In this document: piece by piece, positions 1,751 through 35,990 of the stretch
Layout of the letters: every line of letters begins with the position of its first letter
Position numbering within the stretch: position 1 is the first letter of the stretch
Source of the DNA: Megaleporinus macrocephalus
Lineage: Eukaryota; Chordata; Actinopteri; Characiformes; Anostomidae
NCBI GenBank assembly: GCA_021613375.1
Contig: CM038725.1
Span: forward strand, 38,422,324-38,486,323
DNA: 64,000 nt
Reading direction: 5' to 3'
The notes under the pieces: model-generated
Seen by the model: only the letters and a program-made list of their open reading frames with translations
What the model was told of the DNA's origin: nothing
The model's database searches: none
Position numbers and translations under genes: made by a program

Positions 1751-3044
1751 GTAAGAACACCTGCCGCTGGGTTCAGGAGGGAGTTCACCTCCAGGTAGAT
1801 TCGGTTTCTGCAGACCTCTAGACCGGGGGTCTCAGTAACACCTGCTGTGGTACGATATTCTCACCGTACTCGACTCTGCCTTTTTAAGGGTAATAGCTGT
1901 TGCCATTGGTGCATTAAAGAGCCATAACATGGAAAACTGAACCCCCCAACCCCCCCACCAGTCACACCCCAGTCTGTACTCTATAGAACATACAGTCTGT
2001 ACAGCACATACAGTCTGTGCTACCCATCCAGACCCTGCAATCTATACAGCACATACATTCCATACAATCTGTATAGTCTATACAGCACATACAGTACATA
2101 CATTCCATATAGACCGTACAGTCCATACAACCTATACAGTCTCTGAAGTCTATACAGCCTATACATTCCATACAGTCTATATAGTCTATACAGCACATAC
2201 AGTACATATAGCCCCTATATTGTCCATATAGACTGTACAGTCCGTACAACCCATACAGTCTTTGCAGCCTATACAGCCCTTACAGCATGTGCATTCCATT
2301 CCGTCAATACAGTCTGTACAGCTCATTCAGTACATACATTCCATTCAGTCTACATAGTCTGTATAGTCTATACAACACATACATTCCATACAGTCTATGT
2401 AGTATATACAGCACATACAGTACATACAGCCCATATAGACGGTACAGTCTGTACAACCCATACAGTCTTTGCAGTCTATACAGCCCTTACAGCATGTCCA
2501 TTCTATACAGTCTACATAGTCCATACAGTCTGTATAGTCGATACACCCCTACAGTTTGTAGAGCCCTTACAGTCTATACAGTTCATACGGCACTTAAAGC
2601 CTTTATCATCCGTACAGTCCATACAGCCTTTATAGTCTGTACAGTTTATACAGCTCTCACAGTCTGTACAGCTCGTATAGTCTACATGGTCCATACAGGC
2701 TATACAGCCCATACAGTCTATACAGTTCATACGGCCTATACAGTCTATACACTCCATGCATCCTTTAAGTGCAGATGATTTCATTGGGTTGTGTTTATGT
2801 TCTAGCTAACCGGCTCGGTTCTGGAGGACTCATGGAAGCAGAGTGGAGATCACCACATGGACATGATCATCCAGAGGACTGAGAACATCGTGCTGGACAC
2901 CGAGTGCAGCAGGTCTTTAATGGTTTATGATCTTTAATTGTTACAGTAGTGCATCTTCTGCTCCACCTTAGATGATCCTGACTGCACTGTAGCCTACCTG
3001 CAGCAGCTCTTAGTGGGTGTTTGTGTGAGTGTGAGTATATATAA

Positions 3045-3087
<43 letters not shown>

Positions 3088-10599: not shown

Positions 10600-10715
10600 C
10601 GGGGGCAGCGTCACTGAACACGCGCGCTGCGGCTCTGCAGAAGAAGAAGCGGCAGCTGAACACAAACAGTTGGCGGGTTTCGGTTTAAATACAAACACCG
10701 TTTAAACTACTGCAG
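10600..10715 (+). other. Probable promoter and non-coding first exon of c5orf34
   Basis: A short GC-richer island (cgcgcgctgcggctctgcag at 10620-10639) follows the AT array. It runs into CTACTGCAG with a strong donor GTGAGG at 10716, the first copy of a donor that is then repeated. A TTGGCGGG motif lies at 10670-10677. The start site cannot be seen, so the left limit is a guess. The coding exon at 13,821 has an acceptor just before its ATG, which requires an upstream non-coding exon. Confidence 0.55.
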
Positions 10716-11226
10716 GTGAGGATTTAAACTACTGCAGGTGAGGATTTAAACTACTGCAGGTGAGGATTTAAACTACTGCAGGTGAGGATTTAAACTACTG
10801 CAGGTGAGGGTTTAAACTACTGCAGGTGAGGATTTAAACTACTGCAGGTGAGGATTTAAACTACTGCAGGTGAGGGTTTAAACTACTGCAGGTGAGGATT
10901 TAAACTACTGCAGGTGAGGATTTAAACTACTGCAGGTGAGGATTTAAACTACTGCAGGTGAGGGTTTAAACTACTGCAGGTGAGGGTTTAAACTACTGCA
11001 GGTGAGGATTTAAACTACTGCAGGTGAGGGTTTAAACTACTGCAGGTGAGGATTTAAACTACTGCAGGTGAGGATTTAAACTACTGCAGGTGAGGGTTTA
11101 AACTACTGCAGGTGAGGATTTAAACTACTGCAGGTGAGGATTTAAACTACTGCAGGTGAGGATTTAAACTACTGCAGGTGAGGATTTAAACTACTGCAGG
11201 TGAGGATTTAAACTACTGCAGGTGAC
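10701..11226 (+). repeat. 22-bp minisatellite carrying a splice donor
   Basis: About 24 head-to-tail 22-bp copies with core CTACTGCAGGTGAGGATTTA (or GGGTTTA). Each contains the perfect donor context CAG/GTGAGG. The unit has no ATG. Copies are nearly identical, which points to recent expansion or homogenisation. Confidence 0.95.
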
Positions 11227-11379
11227 AGATCAGTTACAGCTAACCCGGCAGTAACACCTGCGGCACTTAAGGTGTAGCGGACAATCCTCAGTACAAGCCG
11301 TGTATGTAGTAAAGTTAGGATTTTAGTCTAGACTAGATTTAAATCCGGTTAATGATGTTCTGAGTGTTCGAGGTGTGAA

Positions 11380-13797
11380 ATGGTTCAGCTGTTCTTTACA
11401 GTGGAGGTGGTGGTGTTTACAGTGGTGGTGGTGATGTTTACAGTGGTGATGGTGTTTATAGTGGCGGTGATGGTGTTTACAGTGGCGGTGATGATGTTTA
11501 TAGTGGCGGTGATGGTGTTTACAGTGGTGGTGATGGTGTTTACAGTGGTGATGATGGTATTTACAGTGGTGGTGGTGATGGTGTTTACAGTGGTGGTGAT
11601 GTTTACAGTGGTGGTGATGATGTTTATAGTGGTGGTGATGGTGTTTATAGTGGTGGTGATGTTGTTTACAGTGGTGGTGATGTTTACAGTGGTGGTGATG
11701 GTGTTTACAGTGGTGGTGGTGGTGATGTTTACAGTGATGGTGATGGTGTTTACAGTGGTGGTGATGGGTTTTACAGTGGTGGTGATGGTGTTTACGGTGG
11801 TGGTGGTGTTTACAGTGGTGGTGATGGTGTTTACAGTGGTGGTGATGGTGTTTATAGTGGTGGTGATGGTGTTTATAGTGGTGGTGATGTTTATAGTGGT
11901 GGTAATGGTGTTTATAGTGGCGGTGATGATGTTTATAGTGGCGGTGATGGTGTTTACAGTGGTGGTGATGATGTTTATAGTGGTGGTGATGGTGTTTACA
12001 GTGGTGGTGGTATTGTTTACAGTGGTGATGATGGTATTTACAGTGGTGGTGGTATTGTTTACAGTGGTGATGATGGTATTTACAGTGGTGGTGGTGATGG
12101 TGTTTACAGTGGTGGTGATGATGTTTATAGTGGTGGTGATGTTTACAGTGGTGGTGATGATGTTTATAGTGGTGGTGATGGTGTTTATAGTGGTGGTGAT
12201 GTTGTTTACAGTGGTGGTGATGTTTACAGTGGTGGTGATGATGTTTATAGTGGTGGTGATGGTGTTTACAGTGGTGGTGGTGGTAATGTTTACAGTGATG
12301 GTGATGGTGTTTACAGTGGTGGTGATGGTGTTTACAGTGGTGGTGATGGTGTTTATAGTGGTGGTGATGTTTATAGTGGTGGTAATGGTGTTTACAGTGG
12401 CGGTGATGATGTTTATAGTGGCGGTGATGGTGTTTACAGTGGTGGTGATGATGTTTATAGTGGTGGTGATGGTGTTTACAGTGGTGGTGGTATTGTTTAC
12501 AGTGGTGATGATGGTATTTACAGTGGTGGTGGTATTGTTTACAGTGGTGATGATGGTATTTACAGTGGTGGTGGTGATGATGTTTATAGTGGTGGTGATG
12601 ATGTTTATAGTGGTGGTGATGTTTACAGTGGTGGTGATGATGTTTATAGTGGTGGTGATGGTGTTTATAGTGGTGGTGATGGTGTTTACAGTGGTGGTGA
12701 TGATGTTTATAGTGGTGGTGATGGTGTTTACAGTGGTGGTGGTGGTGATGTTTGCAGTGATGGTGTTTACAGTGGTGGTGGTGGTGTTTACAGTGGTGAT
12801 AATGGTGTTTACAGTGGTGGTGATGGTGTTTACAGTGGTGATGATGGTGTTTACAGTGGTGGTGATGATTGTGTTTACGGTGGTGGTGGTGATGGTGTTT
12901 ACAGTGGTGGTGGTGATGTTTACAGTGGTGGTGATTGTGTTTACAGTGGTGATGGTGTTTACAGTGGTGGTGGTGATGTTTACAGTGATGTTGATGGTGT
13001 TTACAGTGGTGGTGATGTTTACAGTGGTGGTGATTGTGTTTACAGTGGTGATGGTGTTTACAGTGATGGTGGTGATGTTTACAGTGATGGTGATGGTGTT
13101 TACAGTGGTGGTGATGATGTTTATAGTGGTGGTGATGGTGTTTACAGTGGTGGTGGTGGTGATGTTTGCAGTGATGGTGATGGTGTTTACAGTGGTGATA
13201 ATGGTGTTTACAGTGGTGGTGATGGTGTTTACAGTGGTGATGATGGTGTTTACAGTGGTGGTGATGATTGTGTTTACGGTGGTGGTGGTGGTGATGTTTA
13301 CAGTGGTGGTGATTGTGTTTACAGTGGTGATGGTGTTTACAGTGGTGGTGGTGATGTTTACAGTGATGGTGATGGTGTTTACAGTGGTGGTGATGTTTAC
13401 AGTGGTGGTGATTGTGTTTACAGTGGTGATTGTGTTTACAGTGATGGTGGTGATGTTTACAGTGGTGGTGATGGTGTTTACAGTGGTGGTGATGGTGTTT
13501 ACAGTGGTGATGATGGTGTTTACAGTGGTGGTGATGATGTTTACAGTGGTGGTGGTGGTGATGTTTACAGTGGTGGTGATGGTGTTTACAGTGGTGGTGA
13601 TGATGTTTACAGTGGTGGTGATGGTGTTTACAGTGGTGGTGATGGTGTTTATGGTGATGGTGTTTACAGTGGTGGTGATGGTGTTTACAGTGGTGGTGAT
13701 GGTGTTTACAGTGGTGGTGATGGTGTTTACAGTGGTGGTGGTGATGGTGTTTACAGTGGTGGTGGTGATGGTGTTTACAGTGGTGGTGATGGTGTTT
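11380..13797 (+). repeat. GTTTACAGTGGTGGTGATG minisatellite in c5orf34 intron 1
   Basis: About 2.4 kb of units of 15-24 bp (mostly 18 or 21) with core GTTTACAGTGGTGGTGATGG. Several multi-unit blocks recur (for example 11,560-12,090 resembles 12,090-12,560). The unit length is a multiple of three and lacks stops, so an 852-codon His-rich frame on minus and an 825-codon Val-rich frame on plus are artefacts. Confidence 0.96.
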
Positions 13798-13820
13798 GGT
13801 CTGATTACTTCTGTCCACAG

Positions 13821-14011
13821 TGATGGCAGCTGTCCGGTTCATGGTGATGTACGGTGATGAGTCGGTGGACGTGTCCTTCACGGATGGTTCTCGTCTCCAG
13901 CTGTCTCCCTGCGGGGCCGAATACGTTCTGGAGAAAGCTCCTCCGGCTCACCCTCTGCACGAGAGGAGACGAGTGAGACACAGGACCCGGTTCACCATCA
14001 GCCAGTACAGG
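13821..14011 (+). CDS. c5orf34: c5orf34 coding exon 1 (start codon)
   Basis: Acceptor tctgtccacag, two UTR bases, then ATG at 13823 and 63 codons ending TRFTISQYR before gtaatc. The start was chosen because MAAV... aligns with the known N-terminus and the acceptor lies 2 bp upstream. Confidence 0.93.
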
Positions 14012-17000
14012 GTAATCAGTACTGCCCCCAGTGGACACGGTGCAGTTCCTCCACATCACCACAGGAGGCGCCACGGCTACACTCTGTACACCCACTTAAC
14101 ACTCTGTACACCCACTGAACACTCTGTACACCCACTGAACACTCTGTACGCCTACTGAACACTCTGTACACCCACTGAACACTCTGTACACCCACTTAAC
14201 ACTCTGTACACCCACTGAACTCTCTGTACACCTACTGAACACTCTGTACACCCACTGAACACTCTGTACACACACTTAACACTCTGTACACCCACTTAAC
14301 ACTCTGTACACCCACTGAACTCTCTGTACACCCACTGAACACTCTGTACACCCACTGAACACTCTGTACACCCACTGAACACTCTGCACACCCACTGAAC
14401 ACTCTGTACGCCTACTGAACACTCTGTAAGCCTACTGAACACTCTGTACACCTACTGAACACTCTGTACACCCACTTAACACTCTGTACACCCACTTAAC
14501 ACTCTGTACACCCACTGAACACTCTGTACACCCACTGAACACTCTGTACGCCTACTGAACACTCTGTACGCCTACTGAACACTCTGTACACCCACTGAAC
14601 ACTCTGTACACCCACTTAACACTCTGTACACCCACTGAACTCTCTGTACACCTACTGAACACTCTGTACACCCACTGAACACTCTGTACACCCACTTAAC
14701 ACTCTGTACACCCACTGAACACTCTGTACACCCACTGAACACTCTGTACGCCTACTGAACACTCTGTACACCCACTGAACACTCTGTACACCCACTTAAC
14801 ACTCTGTACACCCACTGAACTCTCTGTACACCTACTGAACACTCTGTACACCCACTGAACTCTCTGTACACCTACTGAACACTCTGTACACCCACTGAAC
14901 ACTCTGTACACCCACTGAACACTCTGTACACCCACTGAACACTCTGTACACCCACTGAACTCTCTGTACACCTACTGAACACTCTGTACACCCACTGAAC
15001 TCTCTGTACACCCACTGAACACTCTGTACACCCACTGAACACTCTGTACACCCACTGAACACTCTGTACACCCACTTAACACTCTGTACACCCACTGAAC
15101 TCTCTGTACACCCACTGAACTCTATGTACACCTACTGAACACTCTGTACACCCACTGAACACTCTGTACACCCACTGAACACTCTGTACACCCACTGAAC
15201 ACTCTGTACACCTACTGAACACTCTGTACACCCATTGAACACTCTGTACACCCACTGAACACTCTGTACACCCACTGAACACTCTGTGCACCCACTGAAC
15301 TCTCTGTACACCTACTGAACACTCTGTACACCTACTGAACACTCTGTACACCTACTGAACACTCTGTACATCCACTTAACACTCTGTACACCCACTGAAC
15401 TCTCTGTACCCCAACTGAACTCTCTGTACACTTACTGAACACTCTGTACACCCACCTAACACTCTGTACACCCACTGAACACTCTGTACACCCACTGAAC
15501 ACTCTGTACACCTACTGAACACTCTGTACACCCACTTAACACTCTGTTCACCCACTGAACACTCTGTACACCCACTGAACACTCTGTACACCTACTGAAC
15601 ACTCTGTACACCCACTTAACACTTTGTACACCCACTGAACACTCTGTACACCCACTGAACACTCTGTACACCTACTGAACACTCTGTACCCCTACTGAAC
15701 ACTCTGTACACCCACTTAACACTCTGTACACCCACTTAACACTCTGTGCACCTACTGAACACTCTGTGCACCCACTGAACACTCTGTACACCTACTGAAC
15801 ACTCTGTACACCCACTTAACACTCTGTACACCGACTGAACTCTCTGTACACCCACTGAACACTCTGTACACCCACTGAACACTCTGTACACCCACTGAAC
15901 ACTCTGTACACCCACTTAACACTCTGTACACCCACTTAACACTCTGTGCACCTACTGAACACTCTGTGCACCCACTGAACACTCTGTACCCCCACTGAAC
16001 ACTCTGTACCCCCACCGAACACTCTGTACCCCCCACTGAACACTCTGTACCCCCCACTGAACACTCTGTACGCCCACTGAACACTCTGTACCCCCACTGA
16101 ACACTCTGTACCCCCACTGAACACTCTGTACCCCCACTGAACACTCTGTACACCCAAAATATCCTCTTAACACTCTGTTTTTCTTTGCTGGGAAAGTAGA
16201 AGGTGGTCATGTTACTCCGTGGCTGGTGGTCATGTGGGATGAGCAGAAAATACAATGTAAATAAAAGTATCTAGAAGTACTTTATCTGTGTAGTATTGAG
16301 TAGAAGTAGTAAAGTACTGTGAGTAGATCTGGTGTAACTGAGCTGTGAGGCTGCAGATACACTGATCAGATTCATTACACTGTGTAGTCAACCTGCTGAA
16401 TCATTTTACCCCACATCCCATAATTCCTCAGTCCACCCTGTGTTCTGCTTAGGCTTTGCTGGTTGACGCCTTGAACTTCAGGAATAAGTACGCAGAGCGG
16501 CCGTATTTACCTGAGGAGCTCATTCCTGAAGACCAGAAGGAGGTAGGACTTCCGTACAGCTGCTGTTTACCAGTACGTTCTCATCTCAGGAGGCTTCAGG
16601 AACTTCCACACTCGTTTCCACTGAAACTGACCAGAAACCAGCAGCAGAACTGTCTGAGCCTTCAAATCCCCAGTGACCAGTCACACCACCCACACACCAA
16701 CTGTTCACTCCACAATACTCACTCCCACCGAGGAGTGAGTAGCTCATTCACCAGTTTTCCTGTTCCACCTTAAACAATGCTAACAGCTAGCATCGGCATC
16801 ATAACAGCTAGCATCAGCACCATAGCAGCTAGCATCAGCCTCATAACAGCTAGCATCAGCACCGTAACAGCTAACTCTACTACATGTCTTCTCCTTCAGG
16901 TGCTGATAAAGTAACAGCTAACATCAGCACCGTAACAGCTAACTGTACTACACATCTTCTCCGTCAGGAACTGGTAGAGTAACAGCTAGTGTCAGCACAG

Positions 17001-20000
17001 TAACAGCTAGTGTCCGCGTTGTAATAGCTAGCACCAACACTGTAACAGCTAACTGTACAACATGTCTTCTCCTTCAGGAGCTGATAAAGTAACAGCTAGC
17101 GTCAGCACCGTAACAGCTACCATCAGCATCGTAACAGCTAGCGTCAGCACCGAAACAGCTAACTGTAGTACACTTCTTCTCCTTCAGGAGCTGGTAGATT
17201 AACAGCTAGTGTCAGCACCATAACAGCTAGCATCAGCACCGTGACAGCACCGTCTTGTCTTTCAGGAGCTGATAAAGTAACAGCTAACGTCACCACAGTA
17301 ACAGTAAGCGTCAGCATCGTAACAGCTAGCGTCAGGATCGTAACAGCTAGCTGTACAAAACGTCTTCTTCTTCAGGAGCTGATAGACTAACAGCTAACGT
17401 CATCACTGCAACAGCTAGCGTCATCACTGTAACTACAAACATAAGCACCGTAACAGCTAATGTCATCGCTGTAACAGCTAACGTCAGCACTGTAACAGCT
17501 AATGTCATCGCTGTAACAGCTAATGTCAGCACTGTAACGGCTAACGTCAGCACTGTAACGATGCGTCTTCTCCCTCAGGAACTGCTAGCTGAGGTCTCTG
17601 AGGCTGAGTGGTCTTCAGCAGACCCCTGCAGCGTCGCCCACGGCCCAGGAGGAGCAGTAACGGTGTGTTCGGTGGACGGTCATGCGCGGCTGGTTCTGTC
17701 CAGCTCTGGTCAGGAGTTCACGGTGGAGTTCACGAGCAGGAGCAGCCAGAATGAAGAGCGTCCTCCGGGACTACTGGTCAGTAGTTCACAGCCGTCCACA
17801 GCGTCCAGACACGTCCGTTCATCAGAGAGCCTGCAGAGACACGCTCACGGGTCACTCGAGGACACGGCGAGGTCACAGAGGAGGGTCATCCACACACGTG
17901 TGGTCCAGCACCACTCTGGACTCCATCACCCTCACACCTGGAGCTTCCCCCTCGCTATAGCTCTCAGCCAATGGGGAGCCGCTGGACAGCACAGGGGCAA
18001 TGAGACGGAGGGAGAGTTAGGCCACGCCCCCACCCCTGTCTCTCAGGCGATGGAGAAATGTAGCCTTCCTCTTCCTCTCCCGCTGACCTGCCCCTGCCCT
18101 CATCAGCACAGGTCAGTACTCTCTCAGTACATACTCAAATACTCACTCAGTACTGTTCAATACTAAACTCTAATAACAGTATCACATTAATAAATAGTAT
18201 TAATAATAAATTAGGGATCCTGTACCAGAATCGACACTGCTGATTGGCTGATCATACCCGCTGCGTGTTTTATTATTATTATTTTTTTATTATAATTATT
18301 ATTTTTTTATTATATTAGTAAGAATAAAGTAGAGAGAAGTTTTATAAACACAGCTTTTGATCAGATGTGATGTTTTGAATGTTTTAAATGATAACCAGGC
18401 CGTTAATGTGAATCCTCGAGATCTGAGGAGGGTTTTTTTGGAGGTCTATGGACCAATTAGAAGTAAGAGATCATCACAGTCATTACCGTCCTCCAGAAGA
18501 TGGTCATATAGCTGCGTAGGTGCTGCGGTAGTGACCCGGATTTGCCATAAACAGTTCTACAATTTAGATAACTGTCTGTTAAAGAACATCCTTATTTATA
18601 TGTATATATATATATATATATATGATAGAGTATCAGCTAACGGCAGCACCGTAACAGCTAACGGCAGCACCGTAACAGTTAAGGTCAGTACTGTAACAGC
18701 TAACGGCAGCACTGTAACAGCTAACGGCAGCACTGTAACAGCTAACGGCAGCACCGTAACAGCTAACGGCACCGTAGTGGCTAATATCAGCACCGTAACA
18801 GCTAATGTCAGCACAATAACAGTTAACGGCTGCAGTGTAGTGGCTAACAGCAGCACTGTAATGGCAAATGGCACCACCGTAACAGCTAAGGTCAGTACTG
18901 TAGAAGTTAACATTAGCAATGTAACAGCTAATGACAGCACCATAACAGCTAACGTCAGCACCGTAACGGCTAACGGCAGTACTGTAACAGCTAACGTCAG
19001 CACAATAACAGTCATTGTCCGCACTGTAACAGCTGACGCCAGCACTGTAACAGCTAACGCCAGCACTGTAACGGCTAACATCAGCACCATAATGGCTTAT
19101 GTCAGCACCGTAACGGCTTATGTCAGCACCGTAACAGCTAACGTTAGCACCATGACAGCTAACGTCAGCACCGTAACTGTTAACGGCAGTACCATAACAG
19201 CTAACGTTAGCACAATAACAGTTAACGTCAGCAACGTAAGAGCTAACGTTAGCACTGTGACAGCTAACATAACAGCTAACGAAGATGATGGTCCTAATGT
19301 TCTACCCAGGTGGCGGTTTGGCAGCGGAGCATCTGATTGGCCAGAACTGAATGCGTCCACCGAGCTGGTGAGGGTGGTCTGGTGTCACGGCATCGTTTAC
19401 CGGTAACGATCATATCCATCACGTTAATCATATCGTTATTATAACTCGTTATTAATCACTAATAATCTCAACAATCACTCCCGTTATCGAGTCCTGAGCA
19501 GCTCCAGTCCGTATTCACACTTCCACCTTAAACAGAGCAGCTGTTACATTCTGAGCCATTTAAGGTGGAGCTGCAGGTTTGAATAAGAAGCTGACTCTGA
19601 GTCAGTCTGCTGTGTGTATAGAGTCTGACTCGTGTGTCTGTGTAATGAAGCTGCGGGTGAATGTGTGATGAGTGTAATTGTGTGTCAGGCTGGTAGGTGG
19701 CGCTGTGCCCGTGGTGGAGGTTTCTCCTGCAGATGGTTCAGTGATCAGGTCTAATGGAGTCCTAGCTGAGTACTTCACCCACTACAGACCCTCATCATCT
19801 GCTGTAAGATACACCCACCCACACTACAGGACAATTATAACAATTAGAGTAATATTAATAATACTAATACTAATATTAGTAATAATGAGTATCCAGTAGG
19901 AATGAAAGCTCACTGTGTTCGTATCTCAGTTTTACTGATGTATATTATGTAGTAACTGAGCTGCAGTCAGTCTGTTGCGGTAATGACAGTGTTTGAAGGC

Positions 20001-23000
20001 TGAGTATAGTAAACAGTAAACATCTGTTTGTTTACAGATTGCGGAGAGTGTTTACTACCTCAGTGGTCTTCCACCTGACCTGCCTGGACAAACCTACTCA
20101 GTCAGGAACGTAGTGACCAGAGCCAGCAGGTTTGCAGAGTCATGTGGGATACAGCACCCACCTAGAAACAACATAGCAACCAAATGTCAAATGTCACTAT
20201 AGCAATTTCCTAGCAACACCTTAGCAACCTCCTGTATTACCACAGCAACCTCTTAGTAACATCATGGCAGCCTAATAGCAACTACCTGGACTAACACTGC
20301 AACTGCCTAGCACCACATTAACTATTTTATGGCAACCACTTGAAATACCATAGCAACAGCTTAGCAACCCTAAAGCAACCACCCCATATACCATAGCAAA
20401 CATATGCAATACCATAGCAACCAAATGTGAGCCCATAACAATGACCTAGCAGCACCTTAGCAACCCTGTGGGATACCATAGCAACCATCTAGCAACATCC
20501 TAGCAAACCTAAAGCAACCACCTGGGATACAACAGAAACAACATGGCTACCACGTGGAATAGCAACAACGAACTAGCAGCACCCTAGCAACCCCATGCAA
20601 TACCAAAGCAAACATCTAGCAACATCTTAGCAAACTTAAAGCAACCACCTGGGATACAACAGAAACAACATAGCAACCATGTGGAATGCCATCGCATCCA
20701 CATAGCAACCACATGGCATACAATAGCAACCATATGTCATACCATGACAGTTGCCTAGCAACACCTTAGCAACCACCTGTCAGACCACAGTAACCTCTAA
20801 GTAACTTCCTAACAGCCACCTAGCAACTACCTGGACTAACACTGCAACTGCAAGGCATCACATTAACTATTTTGTGGCAACCACCTGAAATACCATAGCA
20901 ACACCTTAGCAGCCCTAAAGCAACCACCCAAGAAGGCATAGCAACCATATGGAATGTCATAGCAACAACAAACTAGCAGCACCTTAGCAACCCCATGCAA
21001 TACCATAGCAACCATCTAGCAGCATCCTAGCAAACTTAAAACAACCACCTGGGATACAACAGAAACAACACAGCAACCATGTGGAATACCATCGCAGCCC
21101 TAAAGCAGCCCTAAAGCAACCAGCCAAGATGCCATAGCAACCAACTGTTAACCCATAACAACCACTTAGCACTAAGCAGCACCTTAGCAACCCCTTAGGA
21201 TACCATAGCAACCATCTAGCAACATCCTAGCAGCCAGCTAGCAACACCTTAACTACCACATGGGAAGCCATCACAACAGTCTGACGGTGTTTTGGTTTCA
21301 GGATCCTGCAGTGCTACAGACAGGCCGGCACCTGCACAGCTCCCACAATGCCTCAGTGCTGCTGGAGGAAGGTGAGCACAGCCGTTTAAGGTGGAGCTGC
21401 CTCAGACTGAGGAGGTCTGGAGGTCAGGGTGGGTGAGGAGAGTGGAGTGCTTTGATGTGGTTCACCTGAAGTGTGAGTACCTGTGTTGGGCAGGTGGAGG
21501 TGACGGAGCGTGAGCGTGTGATCTCAGACCTGCAGGTGGAGGAGACTGGCCAGTTTCAGGCTCTCTCAGACGGCACCGCCCACATCACCTTTCTGGACGG
21601 AGTTCAGCTGCAGATGCTGTGGAACACTCGCACACCTGCACAGGTACACAGACTAACCTGTACTACACACACCTGCACAGGTACACACACTAACCTGTAC
21701 CACACACACCTGCACAGGTACACACACTAACCTGTACTACACACACCTGCACAGGTACACACACTAACCTGTACTACACACACCTGCACAGGTACACACA
21801 CCTGCACAGGTACACACACTAAGCTGTACCACACACACCTGCACAGGTACACACACTAACCTGTACTACACACACCTGCACAGGTACACACACTAACCTG
21901 TACTACACACACCTGCATAGGTACACACACTAACCTGTACTACACACACCTGCACAGGTACACACACTAACCTGTACTACACACACCTGCACAGGTACAC
22001 ACACTAACCTGTACCACACACCTGCACAGGTACACACACACTAACCTGTACTACACACACCTGCACAGGTACACACACTAACCTGTACTACACACACCTG
22101 CACAGGTACACACACTAACCTGTACTACACACACCTGCACAGGTACACACACTAACCTGTACTACACACACCTGCACAGGTACACACACTAACCTGTACC
22201 ACACACACCTGCACAGGTACACACACTAACCTGTACTACACACACCTGCACAGGTACACACACTAACCTGTACCACACACGCCTGCACAGGTACACACAC
22301 TAACCTGTACTACACACACCTGCACAGGTACACACACTAACCTGTACTACACACACCTGCACAGGTACACACACTAACCTGTACTACACACACCTGCACA
22401 GGTACAAACACACTAACTTGTACTACACACACCTGCACAGGTACACTCACTAACCTGTACTACACACACCTGCACAGGTACACACACTAACCTATACTAC
22501 ACACACCTGCACAGGTACACACACTAACCTGTACCACACACCTGCACAGGTACACACACACTAACCTGTACTACACACACCTGCACAGGTACACACACTA
22601 ACCTGTACTACACACACCTGCACAGGTACACACACTAACCTGTACTACACACACCTGCACAGGTACACACACTAACCTGTACCACACACACCTGCACAGG
22701 AACACACACTAACCTGTACTACACACACCTGCACAGGTACACACACTAACCTGTACCACACACACCTGCACAGGTACACACACTAACCTGTACTACACAC
22801 ACCTGCACAGGTACACGCACTAACCTGTACTACACACACCTGCACAGGTACACACACTAACCTGTACTACACACACCTGCACAGGTACACACACACTAAC
22901 CTGTTCTACACACACCTGCACAGGTACACTCACTAACCTGTACTACACACACCTGCACAGGTACACACACTAACCTGTACTACACACACCTGCAAAGGTA

Positions 23001-26000
23001 CACACACTAACCTGTACTACACACACATGCACAGGTACACACACTAACCTGTACTACACACACCTGCACAGGTACACACACACTAACTTGTACTACACAC
23101 ACCTGCACAGGTACACACACTAACCTGTACTACACACACCTGCACAGGTACACACAATAACCTGTACCACACACACCTGCACAGGTACACACACTTACCT
23201 GTACCACACACACCTGCACAAGTACACACACTAACCTGTACTACACACACCTGCACAGGTACACACACACTAACCTGTACTACACACACCTGCACAGTTA
23301 CACACACTAACCTCTACTACACACACCTGCACAGGTACACACACTTACCTGTACCACACACACCTGCACAAGTACACACACTAACCTGTACTACACACAC
23401 CTGCACAGGTACACACACACTAACCTGTACTACACACACCTGCACAGTTACACACACTAACCTCTACTACACACACCTGCACAGGTACACACACTAACCT
23501 GTACTACACACACATGCACAGGTACACACACTAACCTGTACCACACACACCTGCACAGGTACACACACTTACCTGTACCACACACACCTGCACAGGTACA
23601 CACACTTACCTGTACCACACACACCTGCACAGGTACACACACTTACCTGTACCACACACACCTGCACAGGTACACACACTAACCTGTACTACACACACAC
23701 TAACCTGTACCACACACACCTGCACAGGTACACACACTAACCTGTACTACACACACCTGCACAGGTACACACACTAACCTGTACCACACACACCTGCACA
23801 GGTACACACACTAACCTGTACCACACTCACCTGCACAGGTACACACACTAACCTGTACCACACACACCTGCACAGGTACACACACTTACCTGTACCACAC
23901 ACACTAACCTGTACCTCACACACCTGCACAGGTACACACAATAACCTGTACCACACACACCTGCACAGGTACACACACTAACCTGTACTACACACACCTG
24001 CACAGGTACACACACTAACCTGTACCACACACACCTGCACAGGTACACACACTAACCTGTACCACACACACCTGCACAGGAACACACACTAACCTGTACT
24101 ACACACACTAAACTGTATGACACACACCTGCACAGGTACACACACTAACCTGTACTACACTCCTGCACAGGTACACACACTAACCTGTACGACACACACC
24201 TGCACAGGTACACACACTAACCTGTACTACACACACCTGCACAGGTACACACACTAACCTGTACGACACACACTTGCACAGGTACACACACTAACCTTTA
24301 CTACACACACCTGCACAGGTACACAAACTTACCTGTACTACACACACCTGCACAGGTACACACACTTACCTGTACCACACACACTAACCTGTACTACACA
24401 CACCTGCACAGGTACACACACTTACCTGTACCAGACACACTAATCTGTACCACACACACTTGCACAGGTACACACACTAACCTGTACTACACACACCTGG
24501 TACAGGTACACACACTTACCTGTACGACACACACCTGCACAGGTACACACACTAACCTGTACCACACACACCTGCACAGGTACACACAATAACCTGTACC
24601 ACACACACCTGCACAGGTACACACACTAACCTGTACCACACACACCTGCACAGGAACACACACTAACCTGTACTACACACACCTGCACAGGTACACACAC
24701 TAACCTGTACTACACACACATGCACAGGTACACACACTAACCTGTACCACACACACCTGCACAGGTACACACACTTACCTGTACCACACACACCTGCACA
24801 GGTACACACACTAACCTGTACTACACACACCTGGTACAGGTACACACACTTACCTGTACGACACACACCTGCACAGGTACACACACTAACCTGTACCACA
24901 CACACCTGCACAGGTACACACACTAACCTGTACCACACACACCTGCACAGGAACACACACTAACCTGTACTACACACACCTGCACAGGTACACACACTAA
25001 CCTGTACTACACACACCTGCACAGGTACACACACTAACCTGTACCACAAACACCTGCACAGGTACACACACACTAACCTGTACCACACACACCTGCACAG
25101 GTACACACACACTAACCTGTACTACACTCCTGCACAGGTACACACACTAACCTGTACGACACACACCTGCACAGGTACACACACTAAGCTGTACGACACA
25201 CACTTGCACAGGTACACACACTAACCTTTACTACACACACCTGCACAGGTACACACACTTACCTGTACTACACACACCTGCACAGGTACACACACTTACC
25301 TGTACCACACACACTAACCTGTACTACACACACCTGCACAGGTACACACACTTACCTGTACCAGACACACTAATCTGTACCACACACACCTGCACAGGTA
25401 CACACACTAACCTGTACTACACACACCTGGTACAGGTACACACACTTACCTGTACGACACACACCTGCACAGGTACACACACTAACCTGTACCACACACA
25501 CCTGCACAGGTACACACACACTAACCTGTACTACACTCCTGCACAGGTACACACACTAACCTGTACGACACACACCTGCACAGGTACACACACTAACCTG
25601 TACGACACACACTTGCACAGGTACACACACTAACCTTTACTACACACACCTGCACAGGTACACACACTTACCTGTACTACACACACCTGCACAGGTACAC
25701 ACACTTACCTGTACCACACACACTAACCTGTACTACACACACCTGCACAGGTACACACACTTACCTGTACCAGACACACTAATCTGTACCACACACACCT
25801 GCACAGGTACACACACTAACCTGTACTACACACACCTGGTACAGGTACACACACTTACCTATACGACACACACCTGCACAGGTACACACACTAACCTGTA
25901 CCACACACACCTGCACAGGTACACACAATAACCTGTACCACACACACCTGCACAGGTACACACACTAACCTGTACCACACACACCTGCACAGGAACACAC

Positions 26001-28450
26001 ACTAACCTGTACTACACACACCTGCACAGGTACACACACTAACCTGTACCACACACACTTGCACAGGTACACACACTAACCTGTACCACACACACCTGCA
26101 CAGGTACACACACTTACCTGTACCACACACACCTGCACAGGTACACACACTTACCTGTACCACACACACCTGCACAGGTACACACACTAACCTGTACCAC
26201 ACACACCTGCACAGGTACACACACTAACCTGTACCACACACAGCTGCACAGGTACACACACTTACCTGTACTACACACACCTGCACAGGTACACACACTA
26301 ACCTGTACCACACACACCTGCACAGGAACACACACTAACCTGTACCACACACACCTGCACAGGTACACACACTAACCTGTACCACACACACCTGCACAGG
26401 TACACACACTTACCTGTACTACACACACCTGCACAGGTACACACACTAAACTGTACGACACACACCTGCACAGGTACACACACTAACCTGTACTAAACAC
26501 ACACCTGCACAGGTACCCACACTAACCTGTACGACACACACCTGCACAGGTACACACACTAACCTGTACCACACTCACCTGCACAGGTACACACACTAAC
26601 CTGTACCACACACACCTGCACAGGTACACACACTTACCTGTACCACACACACTAACCTGTACCACACACACCTGCACAGGTACACACACTAACCTGTACC
26701 ACACACACCTGCACAGGAACACACACTAACCTGTACTACACACACCTGCACAGGTACACACACTAACCTGTACGACACACACCTGCACAGGTACACACAC
26801 TAACCTGTACGACACACACCTGCACAGGTACAAACACTAACCTGTACCACACACACCTGCACAGGTACACACAATAACCTGTACCACACACACCTGCACA
26901 GGTACACACAATAACCTGTACCACACACACCTGCACAGGTACACACACTAACCTGTACTACACACATCTGCACAGGTACACACACTTACCTGTACGACAC
27001 ACACACTAACCTGTACCACACACACCTGCACAGGTACACACAATAACCTGTACTACACACACCTGCACAGGTACACACACTTACCTGTACCACACACACC
27101 TGCACAGGTACACACACTTACCTGTACCACACACACCTGCACAGGTACACACACTAACCTGTACCACACACACCTGCACAGGTACACACACTAACCTGTA
27201 CTACACACACACTAACCTGTACCACACACACCTGCACAGGTACACACACTAACCTGTACTACACACACCTGCACAGGTACACACACTAACCTGTACCACA
27301 CACACCTGCACAGGAACACACACTAACCTGTACCACACACACCTGCACAGGTACACACACTAACCTGTACCACACACACCTGCACAGGTACACACACACT
27401 AACCTGTACTACACACACCTGCACAGGTACACACACTAACCTGTACTACACACACACTAACCTGTACCACACACACCTGCACAGGTACACACACTAACCT
27501 GTACTACACACACCTGCACAGGTACACACACTAACCTGTACCACACACACCTGCACAGGAACACACACTAACCTGTACCACACACACCTGCACAGGTACA
27601 CACTGGCCTGCTTGTGTGTGATGTGTGTAGTTGTTTGTGTGTTCGGCTGCAGGAGCTCTTCGCCGGGGGGGTGCAGTCTTGCAGTGAGGGGCCGGAGCTG
27701 TGCCAGCTCATTCTGCCTGATGGCCAGCAGCACCTGCTGCCGGTAGATGTGGGTGGAGCCTATGGCAGGTAAATACCTGTAGAGGTGATTTTCATCTTCA
27801 TCGTGAAGCTTCATTAACGTCTCTGCGTCTGTGAGGGGAGGGGGTCTCTAACTGCTCTCCTGCTGCAGGTACGTGGCGGTGGCGGCGCGGTGGTGTCGGT
27901 GGGTGAAGCAGACGTACCTGGACACGAGCAGCAGCGCAGACGGACCTCAGACTGACCGGCCAATAGACAGCAGGTATAACAGTCTAGCCCCCTCCCCTCA
28001 CGGTCTGACCCTCACGCCTGAGTTATTATTGAGGTCTGAGTAGAAAACAGAGTTATGATTGATTAGCGTGTATTAATTGATTAGCGTTTATTAATTAATT
28101 AATAAGTAGAGTAATCAGTGTGGACTCTTCTTCTCAGGTCTGTGCTGACGGAGCTGCAGAAGATCCGGAGGTTCAACTGTATCCTTCTGGAAGTGGCGTA
28201 CAGACATACAGGAGGATAAAGAATCGAGTATTGTCTGAAGTTCATGTTTGTTTTTTCTCTTAACCCCCTGCGCTCAGTTCTCCTGGACAGTAGCTCCATT
28301 CTGAACCCTCCAAGAGACCACTCTCAGAGTTCCACACCGACTCCTGACCTCTCTGACCTTGACATCACCGAACGCAGTGTGTCGGAGGCTCTGCAGAGAA
28401 CCACAAAAGCCATCCAGGACATAAACGCTGTCCTGGCCCAGAAGCACTAA
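13823..28450 (+). CDS. c5orf34: C5orf34 homologue, complete coding region (12 coding exons, 588 residues)
   Basis: Exons 13821-14011 (ATG at 13823), 16453-16542, 17579-18111, 19310-19402, 19689-19803, 20038-20129, 21302-21371, 21494-21643, 27653-27768, 27869-27973, 28138-28178 and 28278-28450 join in frame to TAA. The protein aligns along its length with remembered human C5orf34 (about 638 residues): start [20 protein letters not shown] with [70 protein letters not shown]; end [16 protein letters not shown]. The family has uncharacterised N- and C-terminal domains (I recall DUF4524 and DUF4520) and no established function. I see no signal peptide, membrane segment or catalytic motif. Its position beside paip1 matches human 5p12. 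All splice sites and the frame are intact although 14 kb of intron is mostly satellite. Several arrays are copies of its own exon edges. Confidence 0.93.
14074..16155 (+). repeat. 20-bp minisatellite in c5orf34 intron after coding exon 1
   Basis: About 104 copies of ACTCTGTACACCCACTGAAC. Length is almost perfectly constant at 20 bp up to about 16,025; variation is confined to a few positions (ccc/cct, ctgaac/ttaac, aca/tct, tacg). The last roughly 10 copies form a distinct subfamily with TACCCCCACTGAAC and occasional 21-bp units. Confidence 0.97.
16453..16542 (+). CDS. c5orf34: c5orf34 coding exon 2
   Basis: 30 codons, [20 protein letters not shown] through LIPEDQKE, matching the ALDFRN...P.L.E.IIP segment of the family. 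Acceptor tgcttag, donor gtagga. Confidence 0.92.
16780..17570 (+). repeat. 21-bp GTAACAGCTAACGTCAGCAC array with embedded acceptor copies
   Basis: 21-bp units GTAACAGCTAGCATCAGCAC, interrupted at intervals of about 70-110 bp by copies of tcttctccttcag/gagctg. Those copies have AG ends at 16899, 16967, 17077, 17187, 17265 and 17375. They resemble the true exon 3 acceptor and first ~10 exonic bases (17,565-17,588). Confidence 0.94.
17579..18111 (+). CDS. c5orf34: c5orf34 coding exon 3 (largest)
   Basis: 533 bp from [11 protein letters not shown] to HPHQH-like end, phase 2. Includes [20 protein letters not shown] and the later WSFPLAIAL and [11 protein letters not shown] motifs shared with the family; the middle is low-conservation Ser/Arg/His-rich sequence. 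The acceptor tcttctccctcag is the last of seven near-copies upstream. Confidence 0.92.
18597..18624 (+). repeat. TA microsatellite
   Basis: (TA)n of about 28 bp at the left edge of the second 21-bp array. The 18,112-18,596 stretch before it shows only AT-rich intron sequence. Confidence 0.9.
18635..19280 (+). repeat. 21-bp GTAACAGCTAACGGCAGCAC array, second locus
   Basis: Same 21-bp family and orientation as 16,780-17,570, on the other side of coding exon 3. This array lacks the embedded acceptor copies and ends about 30 bp before the exon 4 acceptor. Confidence 0.94.
19310..19402 (+). CDS. c5orf34: c5orf34 coding exon 4
   Basis: Encodes [20 protein letters not shown] then [11 protein letters not shown], aligning with ELVKMVWYKGVTYR of the family. 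Phase 2 at both ends. Confidence 0.92.
19689..19803 (+). CDS. c5orf34: c5orf34 coding exon 5
   Basis: Encodes [20 protein letters not shown] and [14 protein letters not shown]; the DGSV.(R/K)S.G..YFTHY pattern is family-typical. Acceptor gtgtcag, donor gtaaga. Confidence 0.93.
20038..20129 (+). CDS. c5orf34: c5orf34 coding exon 6
   Basis: Encodes [20 protein letters not shown] and [10 protein letters not shown]. Acceptor tttgtttacag, donor gtttgc. Confidence 0.92.
20140..21290 (+). repeat. TAGCAACC-type minisatellite in c5orf34 intron 6
   Basis: Degenerate units of roughly 18-20 bp around CCATAGCAACCACCTAGCAA. A block at about 20,220-20,640 recurs with changes at about 20,780-21,070 (aactaccTGGACTAACACTGCAACTG in both), so there is a larger duplication of about 550 bp. 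Confidence 0.9.
21302..21371 (+). CDS. c5orf34: c5orf34 coding exon 7
   Basis: Encodes [20 protein letters not shown] then CWRK, aligning with RILQ...CCWK. Acceptor ttggtttcag, donor gtgagc. Confidence 0.92.
21494..21643 (+). CDS. c5orf34: c5orf34 coding exon 8
   Basis: 50 codons, [20 protein letters not shown] through [17 protein letters not shown]. The last 13 coding bases, cacacctgcacag, and the donor gtacac are the seed of the 37-bp array that begins immediately. Confidence 0.93.
21625..27605 (+). repeat. 37-bp minisatellite carrying the exon 8 splice donor
   Basis: About 160 copies of a 37-bp unit with parts ACCTGCACAGGTACACACAC and TAACCTGTACTACACAC. It starts at the last 13 coding bases of exon 8 and fills essentially the whole intron. 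Each unit contains CAG/GTACAC, identical to the functional donor. Truncated units and shuffled variants are frequent. A 409-bp higher-order repeat is visible around 24.2-26.0 kb. All Cys/Val-rich open frames on minus are artefacts. Confidence 0.97.
27653..27768 (+). CDS. c5orf34: c5orf34 coding exon 9
   Basis: Encodes [20 protein letters not shown] then [18 protein letters not shown], aligning with LTFPDGQEQLIQIEHPEPYERY. It lies about 50 bp after the 37-bp array ends. Confidence 0.92.
27869..27973 (+). CDS. c5orf34: c5orf34 coding exon 10
   Basis: Encodes [20 protein letters not shown] and a polar tail. The Y...(V/A)..WCR motif is shared with the family. Confidence 0.92.
28138..28178 (+). 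CDS. c5orf34: c5orf34 coding exon 11
   Basis: Short exon encoding [13 protein letters not shown]. Acceptor cttctcag, donor gtatcc, exits in phase 1 and completes Phe with the next exon ([11 protein letters not shown]). Confidence 0.88.
28278..28450 (+). CDS. c5orf34: c5orf34 terminal coding exon
   Basis: Encodes [17 protein letters not shown]...[34 protein letters not shown] and TAA. Its last 43 bp are the founding unit of the arrays that follow, and its last ~100 bp recur at 30,745 and 31,954. Confidence 0.93.
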
Positions 28451-30090
28451 AGAAATCCAGGACATAAACGCTCTACTGGCCCAAAACCACAAAAGCTATC
28501 CAGGACATGAACGCCGTCCTGGCCCAAAAGTGCTAAAGATATCTTGGACATGAAGACTTTACTGGCTCAGAACCACTAAATCCATCCAGGACACAAACGT
28601 CCTTCTGACCCAAAACCAATAAATCCATCCAGGACACAAACATCCTCCTGACCCAAAACCACTAAACCCATCCAGGACACAAAGGTCCTTCTGACCCAAA
28701 ACCACTAAATCCATCCAGGACACACGTCCTCCTGACCTAAAACTACTAAATCCGTCCAGGACACAAATGTCCTCCTGACCCAAAGCTACTAAACACATCT
28801 AGGACACAAACAACCTCCTGACCCAAAACTACTAAACCAATCCAGGGCACAAACATCCTCCTGACCCAAAACTACTAAACCAATCCAGGACACGCACATC
28901 CTCCTGACCCAAAACTACTAAACCAATCCAGGACGCACACATCCTCCTGACCCAAAACTACTAAACCAATCCAGGACACACACATCCTCCTGACCCAAAA
29001 TCACTAAATCCATCCAGAACTAAAATGCTGTCCTGGCCCAAAACCACTAAACCAATCCAGGATACAGACATCCTTCTGACCTAAAACTACTAAACCAATC
29101 CAGGACACAAATGTCCTCTTGTCCAAAACAACTAAACCCATCCAGGACACAAATGTCCTCCTGACCCAAAACCACTAAACCCGTCCAGGACACAAACATC
29201 CTTTTGAACCCAAAACCACTAAACCCATCCAGGACACAAATGTCCTTCTGACCCAAAACCACTAAATCCATCCAGGACACAAACCCTCTACTGACCCAAA
29301 ACTATTAAATACATCCAGGACACAAACGTCCTCCTGACCCAAAATCACTAAATCCATCCAGAACTAAAATGCTGTCCTGGCCCAAAACCACTAAACCAAT
29401 CCAGGATACAGACATCCTTCTGACCTAAAACTACTAAACCAATCCAGGACACAAATGTCCTCTTGTCCAAAACAACTAAACCCATCCAGGACACAAATGT
29501 CCTCCTGACCCAAAACCACCAAACCCGTCCAGGACACAAACATCCTTTTGAACCCAAAACCACTAAACCCATCCAGGACACAAATGTCCTTCTGACCCAA
29601 AACCACTAAATCCATCCAGGACACAAACCCTCTACTGACCCAAAACTATTAAATACATCCAGGACACAAACGTCCTCCTGACCCAAAATCACTAAATCCA
29701 TCCAGAACTAAAATGCTGTCCTGGCCCAAAACCACTAAACCAATCCAGGATACAGACATCCTTCTGACCTAAAACTACTAAACCAATCCAGGACACAAAT
29801 GTCCTCTTGTCCAAAACAACTAAACCCATCCAGGACACAAATGTCCTCCTGACCCAAAACCACCAAACCCGTCCAGGACACAAACATCCTTTTGAACCCA
29901 AAACCACTAAACCCATCCAGGACACAAATGTCCTTCTGACCCAAAACCACTAAATCCATCCAGGACACAAACCCTCTACTGACCCAAAACTATTAAATAC
30001 ATCCAGGACACAAACGTCCTCCTGGCCCAAAACCACTAAATCCATCCAGGACACAAAAGTCCTCCTGACACAAATCCAGAACAGGAACGC
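28451..30090 (+). repeat. 43-bp last-exon-derived array, diverged part
   Basis: Units of about 43 bp running ATCCAGGACACAAACGTCCT, then CCTGACCCAAAACCACTAAA. They are a diverged version of the end of the c5orf34 coding region. A 344-bp block of eight units repeats three times (starts near 29,040, 29,384 and 29,728). Early units (28,448-28,560) are closest to the exon. Confidence 0.94.
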
Positions 30091-30173
30091 TCTGTGTTGA
30101 GACGTGATTTGTGGAGGTTCTGGACTCTGAACTGAAGTGCTGGTCAGTTATTGAGGTTGGTCTAGAAACAGGA

Positions 30174-30847
30174 ATTGTCTCGTGTTTGAACTCTTTGATC
30201 TGTTTGAATGTTTGAACTGGACGTTGTATTAAATTTGTTTGCTCACAGTTCGAGTGGACATGTTGTTTTCTTGCCCTTTGGTTCAAAGTCAGTTTACACC
30301 TCAGAGCGAGAACTCCGAGTCAGAGATTCTGTTGAGTCGTCATTTCTGGTGCTACTACAGGGCAGCGAGAGAGGAACTGCTAGAGACGTGACAGAGAGAG
30401 ACAGAGAGAGAGCGAAGACACCGTCCTGTCCTGTGTCCACCCCGAACATTATGGTATGTGTTTGCGTTTATATTGCGTGTAGTCGTGCTAGTAGTTATTG
30501 TGCTGCTCATATGGTATTAATAGTGATGGTATATTTAGTGTGTTAGCGTGCGACCCAGCCGGACGCGAGTTTAAGTTCTAGCTTGCTGTAGATGATGTGT
30601 TGCTGCTCTGTGGTCACTTCTTGCGGGGAGGTTTGTTGAGCTGCACTGAATAACCAGAACCATAAATCCAGCGCTAAAAGTTTAGGACTACATACTCGCC
30701 TGCCACGCTGATTACTGTGACCCATCTCAGAGGTCCAGGCTGACCTCTCTGACCTTAACATCACTGACCGTAGTGTGTCGGAGCCTCAGCGAAGAACCAC
30801 AAAAGCCATCCAGGACATAAACGCTGTCCTAGCACAGAAGCACTAAA
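30174..30847 (+). repeat. Duplicated segment copy 1, ending in a copy of the c5orf34 last-exon tail
   Basis: Nearly identical to 31,393-32,056, offset 1209 bp. The first ~560 bp are unrecognised. The end (30,748-30,847) restates the terminal coding exon in frame: [34 protein letters not shown] and TAA, preceded by an acceptor-like cccatctcag. The inner part also holds an exon-like piece between gtttgctcacag (30,248) and atg/gtatgt (30,453). A 112-codon frame inside is not recognised. Confidence 0.85.
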
Positions 30848-31392
30848 GGATCCAGGATATAAACGCTGTCCTGGCCCAGAAGCACTAAAGGAATCCAGGA
30901 TATAAATGCTGTCCTGGCCCAGAAGCACTAAAGGATCCAGGATATAAATGCTGTCCTAGCACAGAAGCACTAAAGGAATCCAGGATATAAATGCTGTCCT
31001 GGCACAGAAGCACTAAAGGAATCCAGGATATAAACGCTGTCCTGGCACAGAAGCACTAAAGGAATCCAGGATATAAACGCTGTCCTGGCCCAGAAGCACT
31101 AAAGGAATCCAGGATATAAATGCTGTCCTAGCACAGAAGCACTAAAGGAATCCAGGATATAAACGCTGTCCTGGCCCAGAAGCACTAAAGTCATCCAGGA
31201 CATAAACACTGTCCTAGCACAGAAGCACTAAAGGAATCCAGGATATAAACGCTGTCCTGGCCCAGAAGCACTAAAGGAATCCAGGATATAAATGCTGTCC
31301 TGGCCCAGAAGCACTAAAGGAATCCAGGACACAAACATTGTTCTGGCCCAGAAGCACTAAAGGAATCCTGGATGTATACGCTGTCTTGGCCA
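30848..31392 (+). repeat. 43-bp last-exon-derived array, conserved part
   Basis: About 13 copies of ATCCAGGATATAAACGCTGT + CCTGGCCCAGAAGCACTAAA, much closer to the coding sequence than the 28.5-30.1 kb units. Each still contains the TAA stop in register. Confidence 0.95.
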
Positions 31393-32056
31393 TAATTGTC
31401 TCTTTGATCTGTTTGAATGTTTGAACTGGACGTTGTATTAAATTTGTTTGCTCACAGTTCGAGTGGACATGTTGTTTTCTTGCCCTGTGGTTCAAAGTCA
31501 GTTTACACCTCAGAGCGAGAACTCCGAGTCAGAGATTCTGTTGAGTCGTCATTTCTGGTGCTACTACAGGGCAGCGAGAGAGGAACTGCTAGAGACGTGA
31601 CAGAGAGAGACAGAGAGAGAGCGAAGACACCGTCCTGTCCTGTGTCCACCCCGAACATTATGGTATGTGTTTGCGTTTATATTGCGTGTAGTCGTGCTAG
31701 TAGTTATTGTGCTGCTCATATGGTATTAATAGTGATGGTATATTTAGTGTGTTAGCGTGCGACCCAGCCGGACGCGAGTTTAAGTTCTAGCTTGCTGTAG
31801 ATGATGTGTTGCTGCTCTGTGGTCACTTCTTGCGGGGAGGTTTGTTGAGCTGCACTGAATAACCAGAACCATAAATCCAGCGCTAAAAGTTTAGGACTAC
31901 ATACTCGCCTGCCACGCTGATTACTGTGACCCATCTCAGAGGTCCAGGCTGACCTCTCTGACCTTAACATCACTGACCGTAGTGTGTCGGAAGCTCAGCG
32001 AAGAACCACAAAAGCCATCCAGGACATAAACGCTGTCCTAGCACAGAAGAACTAAA
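31393..32056 (+). repeat. Duplicated segment copy 2, ending in a second copy of the last-exon tail
   Basis: Same as 30,174-30,847 with a few substitutions (ccctttgg/ccctgtgg; gagcctcag/gaagctcag) and a small deletion at the left end. Its exon-tail copy reads [20 protein letters not shown] then AQKN and stop. The near identity indicates a recent tandem duplication. Confidence 0.9.
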
Positions 32057-32700
32057 GAAATCCTGGATATAAACGCTGTCCTAGCACAGAAGAACTAAAG
32101 AAATCCTGGATATAAACGCTGTCCTGGCCCAGAAGCACTAAAGGAATCCAGGATATAAATGCTGTCCTGGCCCAGAAGTACTAAAGGAATCCAGGATATA
32201 AATGCTGTCCTGGCCCAGAAGCACTAAAGTCATCCAGGATATAAACGCTGTCCTAGCCCAGAAGCACTAAAGGAATCCAGGATATAAACACTGTCCTGGC
32301 CCAGAAGCACTAAAGGAATCCAGGATATAAATGCTGTCCTGGCCCAGAAGCACTAAAGTCATCCAGGACATAAACACTGTCCTGGCCCAGAAGCACTAAA
32401 GGAATCCAGGACATAAACATTGTTCTGGCCCAGAAGGACAAAAGGAATCCAGGACATAAATGCTATCCTGGCCCAGAAGCACTAAAGGAATCCCGGACAT
32501 AAACACTGCCCTGGCCCAGAAGCACTAAAGGAATCCTGGACATAAACATTGTTCTGGCCCAGAAGGACTAAAGGAATCCAGGATATAAATGCTATCCTGG
32601 CCCAGAAGCACTAAAGGAATCCAGGACACAAACATTGTTCTGGCCCAGAAGCACTAAAGGAATCCAGGACATAAACACTGTTTTGGCCCAAAACACTGAT
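32057..32700 (+). repeat. 43-bp last-exon-derived array, third block
   Basis: About 15 further units of the same 43-bp family, ending in diverged copies near 32,690-32,760. Confidence 0.94.
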
Positions 32701-32760
32701 AAAGACATCCAACATATAAGTTTTCTGCTGACTCCAAACAACTAAAGCCATCAAGAACTA

Positions 32761-32766
32761 AATAAA
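32761..32766 (+). terminator. Candidate distal polyadenylation signal for c5orf34
   Basis: AATAAA just after the last recognisable 43-bp unit. I saw no AATAAA between the TAA at 28,450 and here, only an ATTAAA in each 1.2-kb copy, so the 3' UTR may run through the repeats. Unproven. Confidence 0.35.
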
Positions 32767-34109: not shown

Positions 34110-35990
34110 GTTAGCAGTTACTGAATATAGGTATTGTATTATATACTGAGTACAGTTTCTCATTAGGGTGAATGTATAACTCTAAATGTAGGTATTGTAT
34201 ATAAACTGAGTTACAGTTTCTCATTAGGTTGAATGTATAACTCTAAATGTAGGTATTGTATATAAACTGAGTTACAGTTTCTCATTAGGTTGAATGTATA
34301 ACTCTAAATGTAGGTACTGTATATAAACTGAGTTACAGTTTCTCATTAGGTTGAGTGTATAACTCTAAATGTAGGTATTGTATATAAACTGAGTTACAGT
34401 TTCTCATTAGGTTGAATGTATAACTCTAAATGTAGGTATTGTATATAAACAGAGTTACAGCGTCCCATTAAGTTGAATATATAACTAAATGTAGGTATTG
34501 TTTATAAACTGAGTTACAGTTTCTCATTAGGTTGAGTGTATAACTAAATGTAAGTATTGTATATAAACTGAGTTACAGTTTCTCATTAGGTTGAATGTAT
34601 AACTCTAAATATAGGTACTGTTTATAAACTGAGTTACAGTTTCTCATTAGGTTGAATGTATAACTCTAAATGTAGGTATTGTATATAAACAGAGTTACAG
34701 CGTCCCATTAAGTTGAATATATAACTAAATGTAGGTATTGTTTATAAACTGAGTTACAGTTTCTCATTAGGTTGAGTGTATAACTAAATGTAGGTATTGT
34801 ATATAAACTGAGTTACAGTTTCTCATTAGGTTGAATGTATAACTCTAAATGTAGGTACTGTATATAAACTGAGTTACAGTTTCTCATTAGGTTGAGTGTA
34901 TAACTCTAAATGTAGGTATTGTATATAAACTGAGTTACAGTTTCTCATTAGGTTGAATGTATAACTCTAAATGTAGGTATTGTATATAAACAGAGTTACA
35001 GCGTCCCATTAAGTTGAATATATAACTAAATGTAGGTATTGTTTATAAACTGAGTTACAGTTTCTCATTAGGTTGAGTGTATAACTCTAAATGTAGGTTT
35101 TGTATATAAACTGAGTTACAGTTTCTCATTAGGTTGAATGTATAACTCTAAATGTAGGTACTGTATATAAACTGAGTTACAGTTTCTCATTAGGTTGAAT
35201 GTATAACTCTAAATGTAGGTATTGTATATAAACTGAGTTACAGTTTCTCATTAGGTTGAATGTATAACTCTAAATGTAGGTATTGTATATAAACTGAGTT
35301 ACAGTTTCTCATTAGGTTGAATGTATAACTAAATGTAGGTATTGTATATAAACTGAGTTACAGTTTCTCCTTAGGTTGAATGTATAACTCTAAATGTAGG
35401 TATTGTATATAAACTGAGTTACAGTTTCTCATTAGGTTGAATGTATAACTCTAAATGTAGGTATTGTTTATAAACTGAGTTACAGTTTCTCATTAGGTTG
35501 AATGTATAAGTCTAAATGTAGGTATTGTATATAAACTGAGTTACAGTTTCTCATTAGGTTGAATGTATAACTATAAATGTAGGTATTGTTTATAAACTGA
35601 GTCACAGTTTCTCATTAGGTTGAATGTATAAGTCTAAATGTAGGTATTGTATATAAACTGAGTTACAGTTTCTCATTAGGTTGAATGTATAACTATAAAT
35701 GTAGGTATTGTATATAAACTGAGTTACAGTTTCTCATTAGGTTGAATGTATAAGTCTAAATGTAGGTATTGTATATAAACTGAGTTACAGTTTCTCATTA
35801 GGTTGAATGTATAACTCTAAATGTAGGTATTGTATATAAACTGAGTTACAGTTTCTCATTAGGTTGAATGTATAACTATAAATGTAGGTATTGTTTATAA
35901 ACTGAGTCACAGTTTCTCATTAGGTTGAATGTATAACTATAAATGTAGGTATTGTTTATAAACTGAGTAACAGTTTCTCATTAGGTTGGA
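34110..35990 (+). repeat. 61-bp minisatellite, forward orientation
   Basis: About 31 copies of a 61-bp unit: TAGGTATTGTATATAAACTG, AGTTACAGTTTCTCATTAGG, TTGAATGTATAACTCTAAAT. Some units have lost CTC (58 bp). A variant pair (cagagttacagcgtcccatt followed by tttataaac) recurs at about 34,440, 34,680 and 34,980, showing block duplication. The same unit occurs inverted at 57,690-58,262. Confidence 0.96.

Follow-up and report, generated by a model that had tools for sequence, protein, structure and literature searches.

Exon-edge sequence in minisatellites of the c5orf34 gene of Megaleporinus macrocephalus is no more frequent than chance gives in repeat-filled introns

The locus and its genes

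The window, by which we mean the whole stretch of DNA analysed, comprises 64,000 bases (C24:38422324-38486323) of the 1.28-Gb assembly of M. macrocephalus, and tandem repeats constitute 43,911 of these bases (68.6%). Three genes are represented in it, all on the plus strand: the terminal portion of paip1 (exons 1625-7879), the coding region of c5orf34 (12 coding exons, at 13821-28450) and a portion of fyb1 (from 42204). The gene models are predictions composed from open frames, splice signals, homology, Pfam and structure matches. Pfam matches were found to MIF4G, to four families in c5orf34 and to hSH3, and the fyb1 model is backed by the FYN-binding protein structures 2gtj and 1ri9. Among the matches listed, the closest to the c5orf34 protein is that of Colossoma macropomum, at 76% in the search listing and 80% in the alignment.

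Minisatellites carrying exon-edge sequence in c5orf34

An earlier note on this DNA described four arrays in c5orf34, each containing the exon boundary next to which it lies, as independent events. Two of the four, a donor array of 37-bp units and a set of acceptor copies, bear out this description directly, while the array at the end of the coding sequence and that at the presumed 5'UTR donor do so in part.

The 37-bp array (21631..27603, plus strand) takes up nearly the whole intron between coding exon 8 (21494..21643) and coding exon 9 (27653..27768). Its first 13 bases are the last 13 bases of coding exon 8, which ends at 21643, and over this stretch the units are identical to the exon edge. 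The array contains 151 donor cores (at most 4 mismatches in 17), and AG/GT is intact in 138 of them. A 33-base core of the unit, searched with at most two mismatches, matches at 138 places in the genome, and the window likewise contains 138, so that the unit is confined to this intron within the searched part of the genome. The residues TPAQ, from the end of coding exon 8, occur in 8 of the 16 aligned relatives, counted by eye, with TPTQ in their place in Colossoma, the closest relative. The restriction of the unit to this intron and the partial conservation of its exonic part in relatives make coding exon 8 the likely source; the array therefore most probably arose from the exon edge, and the exon-to-array direction is well supported by this comparison. 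Splicing at any of the first five later donors is predicted to give a product with a stop, and therefore the first donor should be needed for correct expression of c5orf34.

The second case lies upstream of coding exon 3 (17579..18111), where a composite array of 21-bp-type units (16781..17559, plus strand) includes six copies of the acceptor of that exon, beginning at 16887, 16955, 17065, 17175, 17253 and 17363, with the true exon start at 17579. Each copy holds about 10 exonic bases and has 2-6 mismatches in 23. The residues at the start of coding exon 3 differ among relatives, and copying there may therefore have gone in either direction. A 21-bp array of the same family is present in the next intron (18630..19268, plus strand; 68.7% over 587 bases) with no exon edge in it. 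A further candidate, the 21-bp array with the unit TTTACAGTGGTGG next to the first coding acceptor (11395-13797), was rejected as a fifth case, since its unit recurs in fyb1; the best match near that acceptor junction is 16 of 24 bases. The 21-bp unit TTTACAGTGGTGGTGATGGTG forms large arrays both in this c5orf34 intron (11395-13797) and in a fyb1 intron (51512-55703), at 85.9% over 2489 bases.

The third array, with 43-bp units (28399..30078, plus strand), has its onset in the last codons of the final coding exon (28278..28450, with the stop at 28448-28450) and runs past the stop. It begins at the end of the coding sequence as the earlier note had described, but a stop codon does not count as an exon edge. 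The residues IQDI near the c5orf34 C-terminus were counted by eye in 10 of the 15 relatives that reach this point, and comparison with these proteins makes the coding sequence the likely source of the array. Between c5orf34 and fyb1, two tandem copies of a segment of roughly 1.2 kb (30181-32697) each include a partial last c5orf34 exon followed by a 43-bp array. These two downstream arrays (30793..31391 and 32002..32697, plus strand) are related to each other and to the first, and outside the arrays the two segment copies are identical in 604 of 614 alignment columns.

The fourth array, of 22-bp units (10701..11225, plus strand), lies at the presumed 5'UTR donor of c5orf34 and has 24 donor-like copies, namely 23 copies of CTGCAGGTGAGG and one variant. 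With a scoring matrix built from 28 donors of the window, its sites score 8.5, a site upstream of the array at 10524 scores 8.6 and one downstream at 11372 scores 7.8. Because these two sites score similarly, it is from the array itself that we infer the end of exon 1 to lie within it, which is plausible. Just upstream of the array is a GC-rich stretch (10670-10710) with the motifs GGCGGG and TTTAAA, which we take to resemble cell-cycle promoter elements.

The units of the four arrays differ, as the earlier note had said, but independence does not extend to every array of these families: the acceptor-bearing 21-bp family is shared with the next intron, and the two downstream 43-bp arrays, situated within a near-identical duplication, are therefore related duplicates and no further independent events. 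Two more unit families recur at distant places in the window. Arrays here arise and spread without exon edges as well. A 61-bp unit forms arrays at 34124-35988 and 57689-58261 in opposite orientation, 96.5% identical over 579 bases. In addition, an 11-bp array (59454-63996) made up of TCTCCTCACGC and variants with CTCAGG starts a short distance downstream of a predicted fyb1 donor and abounds in pyrimidine-CAG motifs that resemble acceptors. A listing of general repeats added nothing to this picture.

Placement of arrays relative to exon edges

The earlier note had further proposed that tandem duplication starts preferentially at exon edges, and had set out in advance a comparison of edges with random intron positions. 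Using a 24-base junction probe, with a copy defined by at least 20 matches, nearby copies were found in the window for two of the 58 coding junctions, with none among the 11 of paip1 or the 24 of fyb1. All four cases lie in c5orf34, one of three genes, a clustering that may count against an account by random duplication. The comparison itself gave the opposite of what had been proposed: copies accompany 2 of the 54 intron-flanking junctions versus 1364 of 2000 random intron positions and, at a laxer cut-off of 18 matches, 3 of 54 versus 1451 of 2000. Probes shifted away from the edge found copies in 3 of 54 cases at +12, 2 of 54 at +24, 8 of 54 at +36, 11 of 46 at +60, 18 of 34 at +200 and 21 of 28 at +400, with no local rise at the edge itself. 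Similarly, when arrays with a period below 9 or a TRF score below 150 are left out, array coverage drops on the donor side from 0.94 (+641 to +1280) to 0.04 (+1 to +10) and on the acceptor side from 0.81 (+321 to +640) to 0 (+1 to +10). Copies and coverage are depleted at edges, as expected from selection on exons and splice sites.

Depletion alone could be compatible with strong selection acting on a biased mutation process, and therefore random founder placement was modelled under the same array thresholds. Introns were collapsed to one unit per array and the founder units were placed at random, a null that depends on the collapsed intron lengths, the choice of unit for composite arrays and the TRF thresholds. 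For the 16 arrays of coding introns, 2.8 edge overlaps are expected and 2 are observed; of these two, the 37-bp array alone reaches the edge within the interval called by TRF. Once collapsed, the intron that follows coding exon 8 measures 86 bp, and a 37-bp unit placed there touches an edge with P = 0.49. With the two arrays of intron 1 included (18 arrays), 3.0 overlaps are expected, or 2.6 with stricter unit lengths, against 3 seen when the presumed 5'UTR donor is counted (P of 3 or more 0.62, or 0.51 with the stricter lengths); this count takes in no coding-sequence end. Founder positions are compatible with a uniform distribution (KS p = 0.71).

Elsewhere in the genome, exons of two protein families were sampled with 1.5-kb flanks, for which 38 of 59 loci were usable, the other 21 being interrupted by a stop within the match; of 76 possible edges, 61 scored high enough as splice sites to be kept. 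One locus with a single long open frame, L009, was excluded beforehand; its frame of 1958 codons matches the myosin head domain over positions 2-679 of 679 and is apparently intronless. None of the 61 scored edges has copies in this small sample of mostly less repeat-rich DNA, and off the same edges copies were found 2 times at +12, 5 at +100 to +300 and 11 at +800. The sample shows no excess and sets no tight limit. Across the window and these 61 edges, edge sequence was not found in arrays more often than sequence from random intron positions, and the excess that the earlier note had looked for is absent from the sample examined. The exon-edge copies are real, yet they are no more than chance gives in introns so filled with repeats.

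Origin of the edge-bearing arrays

The four arrays are probably products of ordinary minisatellite birth and growth in an unusually tandem-repeat-rich region, tolerated since the outermost site survives. Short tandem duplications would arise along introns, indifferent to exon edges, and in a short ancestral intron a duplicated unit would readily straddle a splice site. Duplication across a splice site or a stop would be nearly neutral because the outermost copy still supplies an intact coding sequence and a functional site. Through slippage and unequal exchange the array may subsequently lengthen and become homogeneous, within the intron or beyond the stop, leaving long runs of decoy sites; we infer both this course of growth and the neutrality of the decoys. 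The earlier suggestion that duplication is tolerated only where the outermost copy still works is consistent with these arrays; purifying selection gives this result with no need of a new system.

It is very unlikely that the arrays came first and supplied or overwrote the sequence of the exon edges. The identity of unit and edge over 13 coding bases in the 37-bp case and the variable residues at the start of coding exon 3 would fit such an order, but the presence of TPAQ and of IQDI in a number of relatives argues against it, as does the lack of the 37-bp core from any other place in the searched genome. For the edge of coding exon 8, an origin from the array is rejected on the partial conservation of TPAQ and the confinement of the unit to this intron in the searched genome; arrays older than the exon boundary, which the earlier note had named as a finding that would speak against its proposal, are apparently not the case here.

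It is very unlikely that exon edges are favoured starting points of tandem duplication, as might come about through breaks, R-loops or stalled processing at splice sites. Such a preference could account for two coding junctions, a presumed 5'UTR donor and a coding-sequence end being involved in one gene with differing units, but the number of overlaps equals that of random placement, copies show no peak at the edges and none was found at the 61 edges elsewhere. A broader version has just as little probability, namely that duplications bearing splice sites are born or survive more than others in short introns, so that introns would grow outward from their own splice sites and the 37-bp intron would be a ladder of about 150 self-regenerating CAG/GT sites, perhaps spliced recursively.

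Removal of that intron by recursive splicing, with the array as a ladder of zero-length exons, is very improbable. In its favour, the 37-bp units end in CAG/GT, so that splicing to one would rebuild an identical donor; 138 of 151 cores retain AG/GT preceded by CACCTGCAC-like sequence, and the array has 124 occurrences of CTAAC, which could act as a branch site. Against it, pyrimidine runs are scarce in the stretches that precede CAG, and AG/GT is no better conserved than the rest of the core (the T of GT is lowest, at 94%), which is what plain homogenisation predicts.

Relation to known systems and significance

A search of one literature collection, covering the titles and abstract openings of the matches listed, returned no description of edge-seeded minisatellites. 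Human IFI6 is described as having a minisatellite at an exon end whose units carry a splice donor, two downstream units serving as donor sites (PMC4526556). The 37-bp array of c5orf34 is alike in lying at an exon end, and its unit contains the donor of the adjoining exon, which places it among the minisatellites carrying splice-site copies of the IFI6 type. In IFI6 the use of later units gives protein variants, whereas in the 37-bp array the first five later units are predicted to lead to a stop; unit length and gene are unrelated. As described, the IFI6 minisatellite with its multiple splice donors is a direct precedent.

Another described route to new splice sites and intron gain is the tandem duplication of AGGT segments (PMC3443670). 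It resembles the situation in c5orf34 in that a duplicated AG/GT multiplies potential splice sites, but as described it makes a new intron out of exonic sequence, whereas in c5orf34 an intron already present becomes longer and the exons keep their arrangement. Among fishes, the genome of Nothobranchius furzeri is likewise rich in minisatellites, the most abundant of those described being centromeric (PMC2688266), in contrast to the M. macrocephalus window, where they fill the introns of ordinary genes.

As evidence for a new duplication process, the c5orf34 arrays do not stand up. With about 150 near-identical donors one after another, the first of which would have to be used to keep the frame, the intron that follows coding exon 8 amounts to a natural experiment, and it could test how the spliceosome chooses among equal donors and how repeat-filled introns are tolerated.
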